Assembly: GCA_902620585.1 (NCBI GenBank)
Contig: CACNJC010000001.1
Span: 82,879 to 146,878 of the forward strand
From: an uncultured Pelagibacteraceae bacterium
GTDB taxonomy: Bacteria; Pseudomonadota; Alphaproteobacteria; Pelagibacterales; Pelagibacteraceae
Length of the DNA stretch: 64,000 nt
Direction: 5' to 3'
Shown: in pieces, positions 44,072 through 45,783 of the stretch
Numbering within the stretch: the first letter of the stretch is position 1
Layout of the letters: each line of letters begins with the position of its first letter
Position numbers and translations under genes: made by a program
Notes under the pieces: generated by a model
What the model saw: the letters and a program-made list of their open reading frames with translations, nothing else
The model's database searches: none
What the model was told of the DNA's origin: nothing

Positions 44072-44632
44072 ATGGTTACAGCTGGTGTAGATGAGGTGGG
44101 AAGAGGATGTTTAGCTGGACCTGTGGTTTCAGCAGCTGTTATATTGAAAGAAACAATTAATCTAAAACTGTTAAAAGATTCTAAAAAAATTACTTTCAAA
44201 AAAAGAATTGAAATTGCAGACCACATTAAGCTTCATTCCATTTATGCTATTGGCGTTGCATCAGTTGAGGAAATTCATAAATTGAATATTCTTCAAGCAG
44301 CTCTACTCTCAATGAAACGAGCCATTGATAGATTATCAACTACTCCAGAGTTAGTTTTAATTGATGGAAATTTTGCGCCAAAAGGTTTGACAAATTTTAA
44401 AACCATAATTAATGGAGATGAAAAAATTAAATCTATAAGCGCAGCCTCAATAATAGCCAAAGTTTTTAGAGATCAATTAATGATAAAATTGTCCGAAAAA
44501 TTTAACTATTATGCTTGGGAGAGAAACTTTGGTTATGGAACTAAGGCACATATGGATGGTCTTAAAAAATTCGGAATAACATCTCATCACAGAAAAGGTT
44601 TTAAACCAATATACAAGATGTTGTCGAACTAA
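44072..44632 (+). CDS. rnhB: Ribonuclease HII
   Basis: 186 residues. The catalytic start AGVDEVGRGCLAGPVVSAAV contains the D-E-x-G-R-G motif, LVLIDGNFAPKG the second acidic residue, and INGDEKIKSISAASIIAKVFRDQLM the third conserved motif. It removes single ribonucleotides and RNA-DNA hybrids. A type 1 enzyme, rnhA, lies at 60 kb, so both are present. The family usually ends with YxWxxNxGYGTxxH, seen here as YYAWERNFGYGTKAH. Confidence 0.96.
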   Translation: MVTAGVDEVGRGCLAGPVVSAAVILKETINLKLLKDSKKITFKKRIEIADHIKLHSIYAIGVASVEEIHKLNILQAALLSMKRAIDRLSTTPELVLIDGNFAPKGLTNFKTIINGDEKIKSISAASIIAKVFRDQLMIKLSEKFNYYAWERNFGYGTKAHMDGLKKFGITSHHRKGFKPIYKMLSN

Positions 44633-44674
44633 GATACAATATCACTAAAAAACACTTTTTTTTTCTAAAATAGT

Positions 44675-44706
44675 TTGACCAAAGATTCAATTTAAGGTTG
44701 AATCTT
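44675..44706 (+). promoter_or_regulatory. ccrM control region: GANTC sites in a 9-bp inverted repeat within a possible promoter
   Basis: AAGATTCAA (44682-44690) and TTGAATCTT (44698-44706) are perfect complements around a 7-bp loop (TTTAAGG). Each arm holds one GANTC site: GATTC at 44684 and GAATC at 44700, the target of the enzyme encoded 4 bp downstream. TTGACC (44675-44680) and TTGAAT (44698-44703), spaced 17 bp, could be -35 and -10, giving a nearly leaderless mRNA. Alternatively the AAGG in the loop is a Shine-Dalgarno on a longer transcript. The pattern is seen; regulation is inferred by analogy with the Caulobacter ccrM leader. Confidence 0.6.
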
Positions 44707-44709
44707 CTA

Positions 44710-45783
44710 ATGTCAAAATTGTTTAACAAAATTATTAATGGAAATTGTCTCTCAGAAATAAAAAAAATTCCTGATAAATCTTTTAACTTAGTTTTTGCTG
44801 ATCCACCCTACTACATGCAAATCGGTGAAAGTTTAACAAGACCAGATGCAAGCAAAGTAAATGGTGTCAATGACGAGTGGGATCACTTTAACAGTTTTAA
44901 ACATTATGACGATTTTTGTAAGTCTTGGTTATTAGAATGTAAAAGAATTTTAAAAGACAATGGGAGCATTTGGGTAATAGGTTCATATCACAATATTTTT
45001 AGACTTGGATATCATTTACAAAATTTAAATTTTTGGCTTCTGAATGATGTTATTTGGAGAAAAAATAACCCTATGCCAAATTTTAGGGGCACTAGGTTTA
45101 CTAATGCCCATGAAACACTGATTTGGGCATCAAAAAATAAAAAATCTAAATACACTTTTAATTATCAATCCTTAAAATGTTTAAATGATGACTTGCAAAT
45201 GAGATCTGACTGGATACTTCCGATTTGTAATGGTAAAGAACGATTAAAGAAGAATGGTAAAAAAATTCATTCAACGCAAAAACCAGAAGCGCTTTTACAC
45301 CGTATTATTTTAGCCACAACAAATAAAGGAGACACTATCTTTGACCCTTTTTTAGGCACTGGAACAACAGCAGTGGTATCTAAAAAATTGGGTAGAAAAT
45401 ATTTTGGAATAGAAAAAGACAAAAAATATTTTAAGGCTGCTGTAGAACGAATAAATAAAACAAAAGCTATAGAAGAAAGCTATTTAGATACAATTCAAAA
45501 TAATAAATCTAAACCTAGAATACCTTTTGGTTCTCTTGTAGAACTTGGAATATTAAAACCTGGTACTAAGCTATTTGATCCGAAAAAAGAGATAAATGCT
45601 AAAATTATGGCTGATGGAAGCATCAAATATAAAGAGTCCGAAGGTTCTATCCATAAAGTAGCAGCAAAAATTATGGGAGCTGAAAGTTATAATGGCTGGA
45701 CATATTGGCATTGTGATATAAACGGATCTACAGTTGTTATTGACAGTTTGAGGCAGAAATTTATCTCAGAAACAAAAGCCTAA
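44710..45783 (+). CDS. ccrM: Cell-cycle DNA adenine methyltransferase CcrM (GANTC)
   Basis: I chose ATG at 44710 (357 residues). The tracked start is a TTG 12 bp upstream, inside the inverted repeat. It is a beta-class N6-adenine methyltransferase: DPPY catalytic motif in LVFADPPYYMQ, the SAM motif DPFLGTGTTAVVSKKLGRKYFGIE near residue 215, and HSTQKPEALLHRII. The C-terminal ~85 residues (FGSLVELGILKPGTKLF, YNGWTYWHCDINGSTVVIDSLR) are the CcrM-specific DNA-recognition domain. It methylates the A in GANTC and controls cell-cycle transcription in alphaproteobacteria. No restriction partner is encoded nearby. Confidence 0.96.
   Translation: MSKLFNKIINGNCLSEIKKIPDKSFNLVFADPPYYMQIGESLTRPDASKVNGVNDEWDHFNSFKHYDDFCKSWLLECKRILKDNGSIWVIGSYHNIFRLGYHLQNLNFWLLNDVIWRKNNPMPNFRGTRFTNAHETLIWASKNKKSKYTFNYQSLKCLNDDLQMRSDWILPICNGKERLKKNGKKIHSTQKPEALLHRIILATTNKGDTIFDPFLGTGTTAVVSKKLGRKYFGIEKDKKYFKAAVERINKTKAIEESYLDTIQNNKSKPRIPFGSLVELGILKPGTKLFDPKKEINAKIMADGSIKYKESEGSIHKVAAKIMGAESYNGWTYWHCDINGSTVVIDSLRQKFISETKA

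Follow-up and report, generated by a model that had tools for sequence, protein, structure and literature searches.

The ccrM promoter of a SAR11 genus carries a conserved dyad with two GANTC sites, a candidate for methylation-sensitive autoregulation

SAR11 bacteria have CcrM and GcrA and lack CtrA, which raises the question of how ccrM is timed in this group. In a stretch of 64,000 nucleotides from an uncultured Pelagibacteraceae bacterium (the whole stretch is referred to here as the window), an inverted repeat with one GANTC site in each arm ends 3 nt before the ATG of ccrM (44710-44712). Does this repeat control ccrM, and, if so, at which level? Its conservation in 70 congeners indicates that the two-site dyad is the core of the ccrM promoter, an exact and short promoter that is amenable to testing.

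The ccrM gene and the repeat at its start

The gene (44710-45783, forward strand) encodes a protein of 357 aa that matches the solved Caulobacter CcrM, 6PBD, over nearly its full length (residues 7-349, 444 bits) and scores above the cut-off for PF01555 (N6 methylase) and PF18755 (C-terminal RAMA). The equivalog model NF050803 was matched over its full length at 561 bits, short of its cut-off of 830 bits; this model appears to be tuned to the Caulobacter-type protein. On these matches the product is assigned to CcrM, a beta-class enzyme with predicted GANTC methylation activity. GANTC sites are methylated in SAR11/Pelagibacter relatives (PMC9516812). The relatives of the window comprise strain HIMB058 along with single-cell genomes of Pelagibacteraceae (SAR11), and ccrM homologues were found in 121 of 150 relatives. 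The gene upstream of ccrM is rnhB (44072-44632, forward strand), encoding ribonuclease HII (NCBIfam NF000595, above cut-off). Extension of the ccrM reading frame upstream as coding sequence was rejected: the spacing from GAATC to ATG shifts by single bases, and the frame is broken in relatives.

The letters of the window confirm the repeat as first described, with both arms, one GANTC per arm and the 3-nt gap to the ATG. It consists of AAGATTCAA (44682-44690), TTTAAGG (44691-44697) and TTGAATCTT (44698-44706), giving 9-bp arms and a 7-nt gap, and a GANTC search of the window placed GATTC at 44684-44688 and GAATC at 44700-44704. The pattern GATTCAA-N5..9-TTGAATC was observed once in the 64-kb window against an expectation of 0.01, and the complete element occurs a single time in its own genome. 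The inverted repeat is real, and chance is ruled out. The close pair of GANTC sites is unremarkable on its own; over the 64 kb, GANTC is depleted (109 sites observed, 177 expected).

A conserved promoter core with a predicted leaderless start

Conservation was assessed in ccrM upstream sequences of 70 congeneric SAR11 species, with changes counted on the tree of ccrM coding sequences. All 70 share the consensus TTGACC-N3-gATTCAATTT-N3-GTTGAATc, in which TTGAC and GTTGAAT are present in 70/70, ATTCAATTT in 69-70/70, the G of site 1 in 62/70 and the C of site 2 in 65/70; both GANTC sites are intact in 58/70. No change was found on the tree in 20 of the 24 fixed columns, the others being C5 (3 changes), G9 (6), T12 (1) and C29 (5). 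The columns of the N3 spacers show 12-18 changes each, and third codon positions show a mean of 11.7. An invariant core between spacers that evolve at the neutral rate is evidence that the element is under strong selection. The core was found again in 77 of 80 named SAR11 records, whose genomes are partly those of the 70-congener set. Thus, conservation in SAR11 relatives, on which the preliminary description had staked its proposal, was upheld. The perfect 9-bp arms fared less well: they are present in the window and retained in only 17/70 congeners, and the outermost AA/TT is not conserved. By this comparison, the 9-bp arms are partly incidental, and the conserved symmetry spans 19 bp (44685-44703), with GANTC at the edges. 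The outer letters specific to GANTC are constrained, yet they are not the strictest part of the element.

A promoter overlapping both sites, with GAATC inside the -10, had also been proposed, and it is present and conserved in 70/70 congeners. On the forward strand, the -35 element TTGACC lies at 44675-44680; its TTGAC shows zero changes on the tree and is the ccrM -35 in other genera and across the class as well. The -10 element TTGAAT (44698-44703) is found in 70/70, always 17 nt from TTGACC, and is without A at -11. Site 1 (GATTC, 44684-44688) lies in the spacer between the two, at +9 from the start of TTGAC, while site 2 (GAATC, 44700-44704) falls within the -10 and its 3' neighbour. Just 5' of the -35 are A/T tracts, TTTTT followed by AAAA (44657-44670, forward strand), which may function as an UP element; their columns are nearly invariant (0-5 changes) among variable columns in the 70 congeners. 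A promoter scan of the window did not list TTGACC-17-TTGAAT, because the -10 has no A at its second position, and the case for this promoter is therefore one of conservation rather than consensus score. All sampled Pelagibacteraceae genera have TTGAC followed, at the offset of the window's own genus, by a T-rich hexamer (TCTAAT, TCTATT, TTTATT, TTATTT or TTGAAT, with TCTACT once). The absence of A at -11 in these hexamers suggests a weak -10.

The distance from TTGAAT to the ATG is 6 or 7 nt in 68/70 congeners and in 77/77 core-bearing named records. Together with the fixed 17-bp spacing, this implies that transcription should begin with the A of the ATG (44710, forward strand) or immediately beside it, predicting a leaderless mRNA. 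No Shine-Dalgarno sequence was seen upstream of the ccrM ATG in the window.

The predicted start bears directly on the level of control. The repeat could instead act in RNA: a longer leader of ccrM, transcribed from rnhB or an upstream promoter, would contain it as a hairpin that governs translation. The region folds better than shuffled sequences (z -3.4), and TAAAAT just upstream is a possible second -10. However, the hairpin lies 5' of the predicted start, in TAAAAT the T at -7 is found in just 32/70 congeners, and losses at site 1 break the closing pair. This explanation was rejected despite the good fold and is considered very improbable. Of the original suggestion that the repeat regulates ccrM at transcription, translation or both, the regulatory element itself is supported, while control at translation is made less likely by the predicted leaderless start.

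The 19-bp dyad and the class-wide form of the promoter

The conserved dyad, ATTCAATTT-N-RRG-TTGAAT (44685-44703, forward strand), is a candidate operator. Of its 16 strictly fixed columns, 15 show no change on the tree. Columns 20 and 21 have 17 and 13 changes, respectively, all of them A<->G except one T; of 57 fourfold-degenerate columns that evolve at a similar rate, none is held to purines in this way. The left half, ATTCAATTT, mirrors the right half, RRGTTGAAT, around column 19. Pairing in a hairpin would account for column 21 and not for the purine conservation of column 20, since the loop would be too small. The symmetry of the dyad is the pattern expected from a dimeric DNA-binding protein.

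The dyad is more widespread than the GANTC sites. Of 14 Pelagibacteraceae genera, 13 have the form ATTC(A/T)A-N6-GTTGA or one close to it, and its location varies between three places: on the -35, across the spacer and -10, or 3' of the -10. It starts at -13 in four genera (g13, g284, g288 and g290), where its right half is the -35 itself, at +10 in g1, g281 and g287, where it adjoins the start codon, and at +26/27 in g12, g282, g285, g286 and g289, where it likewise adjoins the start codon. In g12 and part of g289, the dyad is present with zero GANTC between TTGAC and the ATG, and in g281 and g287 site 1 is intact in all sampled members while site 2 reads GAATT. Genera that have the dyad without GANTC indicate that the dyad is independent of GANTC. 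The description of the repeat as a palindrome of a GANTC pair thus needs revision: the repeat is real, but its inner 19 bp are more strictly conserved than the GANTC letters at its edges, and the dyad occurs in sister genera with one GANTC site or none. The inverted repeat is best described, on this comparison, as a dyad that acquired edge GANTC sites in the lineage of the window. Genus g12 (L096, L099, L378 and L379), which has kept ccrM, gcrA and the promoter, offers a natural loss-of-site comparison. A separate observation concerns a complete g289 genome (G564:C1:621780-622828), where the ccrM match is split and its second piece has many in-frame stops; this ccrM is possibly frameshifted or decaying.

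These features raise the main rival to methylation-sensitive autoregulation, in which the dyad would be the site of a dedicated dimeric regulator of ccrM, either an unknown protein or CcrM itself, with GANTC incidental or modulating. The dyad is stricter than GANTC, its symmetry at columns 20-21 fits such a protein, and it persists in genera without promoter GANTC. With zero mismatches, it occurs at ccrM only in 25 congeneric genomes, which is also compatible with a dedicated site. However, a single-target regulator would be unusual in a streamlined genome, and none was identified. Moreover, the G of site 1 is kept in 62/70 congeners though the next outward base is free, which points to some selection specific to GANTC. 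A dedicated operator is a possible explanation, and on balance a doubtful one. A wider regulon of the dyad was rejected, given the zero-mismatch matches at ccrM only; at up to 3 mismatches, matches were 1.2-1.8 fold over control, and none of the contexts examined offered a convincing second target.

A survey of 109 ccrM upstream sequences from across the Alphaproteobacteria places the two sites in a broader setting. In 51/109, the distance from the start of TTGAC to a GANTC is exactly 19 nt, compared to 0.09 per offset in shuffles; the 51 genomes are related and do not represent 51 independent events, and many families are spanned. In 51/51 of these promoters, +24 is occupied by A and +28 by T, and neither was used for selection. 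These positions correspond to A -11 and T -7, which puts GANTC onto the -10 box, whose first base is the C that ends GANTC. Most of the 51 have a further GANTC at +7 to +10. In the class loci (L091-L119 and L238-L317), the resulting grammar is TTGAC-N2..5-GANTC-N4..7-GANTC-A-NNN-T, and the ATG often falls between +35 and +38. An in-frame ATG is about five times commoner at +35 to +38 than further downstream in the class survey. Among 17 genomes of family f2, from the order of the window, 15 have ATG at +35/36, a further one has GTG at +36, and the remaining genome departs from this pattern. A ccrM promoter with GANTC on the -10, often leaderless, appears from this distribution to be ancestral. 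The class geometry, with GANTC 19 nt from TTGAC, a C-A-NNN-T -10 and the ATG often at the predicted start of transcription, amounts to a concrete rule for ccrM control.

The genus of the window fits this form in part. Its site 1, at +9, agrees with the class-wide position of +7 to +10, and the combination of GANTC at +19/20 with A -11 and T -7 was not found; the second site is at +25, within TTGAAT. A possible alternative -10, CAATTT (44688-44693), starts at the last base of GATTC and has the class-form composition GANTC-A-NNN-T, with no -35 at the proper distance. The promoter of this genus is, by comparison, a derived version, with site 1 in its ancestral place and site 2 apparently moved into the -10. 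In these surveys, the element, its spacing, the selection on it, the dyad symmetry and the class-wide geometry are established computationally.

Further variation surrounds this promoter form. In those members of family f11 that lack TTGAC (L093, L102 and L103), a CtrA-like box, TTAA-N7-TTAA, takes its place upstream of ccrM, as though the -35 had given way to control by CtrA. A third GANTC recurs about 20-24 nt 5' of TTGACC in relatives, often as GACTC after ACACAAGA, and about 10-15 nt upstream in class members, with the GATTC form in f2 and the class; in the window itself, no third GANTC is present 5' of the -35. A genome-wide set of TTGAC-GANTC promoters was considered and rejected, such promoters being no commoner in SAR11 genomes than a reversed control.

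Proposed methylation-sensitive control and known systems

The favoured reading, held with middling confidence, is that the ccrM promoter-operator forms a compact, CtrA-independent, methylation-sensitive autoregulatory element. CtrA is an unlikely activator, since no CtrA box (TTAA-N7-TTAA) was seen in 44600-44710 and Pelagibacter is reported to be without ctrA (PMC2877005). We infer a mechanism in which sigma-70 RNA polymerase would read TTGACC-17-TTGAAT and start on or beside the A of the ATG, producing the leaderless mRNA. CcrM would methylate both the spacer GATTC, at its class-wide position, and the GAATC inside the -10, a putative lineage-specific relocation of the ancestral site overlapping the -10. 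The methylated adenines of site 2, the top-strand A at -9 and the template A opposite -7, would lie in the melted region. Methylation at the sites and dyad edges may then alter use of the promoter by polymerase, GcrA or a dyad-binding protein. Most likely, full methylation would damp the promoter, and hemimethylation after passage of the fork would reopen it, once per cycle. For the Caulobacter ccrM promoter, which bears two GANTC sites, higher activity in the hemimethylated state is reported (PMC10073500); this difference, and the location of the site 2 adenines in the melted region, are the reasons for favouring damping.

Some findings weigh against methylation-sensitive autoregulation. The GANTC letters are the least strict, with site 1 lost in 8/70 congeners and site 2 in 5/70. 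The lack of site 2 in g281 and g287, and of any GANTC in g12 and part of g289, indicates that the promoter does not require methylation at both sites. In addition, TTGAAT is missing the A at -11 that is present in 51/51 promoters of the class form. CtrA is an unlikely activator, since no CtrA box (TTAA-N7-TTAA) was seen in 44600-44710 and Pelagibacter is reported to be without ctrA (PMC2877005).

The direction of the effect could be the opposite. In a positive loop, the methylated spacer GANTC would recruit GcrA-bound sigma-70 polymerase, so that CcrM would activate the promoter of its own gene. In Caulobacter, promoters whose GANTC lies between the -35 and -10, as site 1 does in the predicted sigma-70 promoter, are activated in S phase (PMC4287350), and GcrA promotes formation of the open complex when the promoter is methylated (PMC7403470). 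The weak -10 would fit an activator, and gcrA is found in 92/121 relatives and in 71 of 80 genomes sampled across the family and class. However, neither site matches the extended motif YGAKTCG (they read AGATTCA and TGAATCT), and gcrA was not found in the genome of the window, which is 85% complete. Lineages without GANTC sites retain gcrA, and co-occurrence of gcrA with promoter GANTC was rejected as there is no association (29/34 without GANTC, 32/36 with; Fisher p 0.73 for hand-tallied groups). The positive GcrA loop is considered unlikely.

Promoters that respond to methylation are already known, as is a pair of GANTC sites at ccrM. The open-access literature yielded no description of the locked geometry, of the leaderless start or of the dyad variant in SAR11; a previous comparative study tallied GANTC over stretches of 500 bp at these promoters and judged such counts insufficient to derive any control (PMC2877005). 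A broader and more speculative scenario, to which we give little credence, would combine autoregulation with a dedicated operator. An ancestral alphaproteobacterial ccrM promoter, self-methylating, often leaderless and with GANTC joined to the -10 box, would survive as the CtrA-free core of cell-cycle methylation control. In SAR11 it would have fused with a dyad specific to the family and recognised by a dedicated regulator of ccrM; this regulator might be CcrM, acting as a sequence-specific repressor whose binding depends on its own methylation of the dyad edges.

The closest known system is the ccrM promoter of Caulobacter crescentus, which involves the same gene, two GANTC sites near the start and feedback from the methylation state (PMC10073500), the last of these being predicted here. 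The Caulobacter promoter is activated by CtrA, whereas here there is no CtrA box, and no ctrA in Pelagibacter (PMC2877005). The promoter described here also differs in having one site inside the -10, a 19-bp dyad and a predicted leaderless start. It shares a GANTC in the promoter core with the GcrA-dependent, methylated sigma-70 promoters of Caulobacter (ctrA P1, mipZ and ftsZ), but it has two sites, one of them in the -10, does not have the extended motif, and drives the methyltransferase itself, with GcrA as a candidate participant. In the Dam-controlled IS10 transposase promoter, agn43 with OxyR and pap with Lrp, adenine methylation over the -10 or operator sets activity after replication. 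The ccrM promoter resembles these systems in the placement of an adenine methylation site over a -10 or operator, and a similar effect on activity may be expected. The differences are that the enzyme and site are CcrM and GANTC rather than Dam and GATC, that nothing suggests phase variation, and that the predicted control is autoregulatory.
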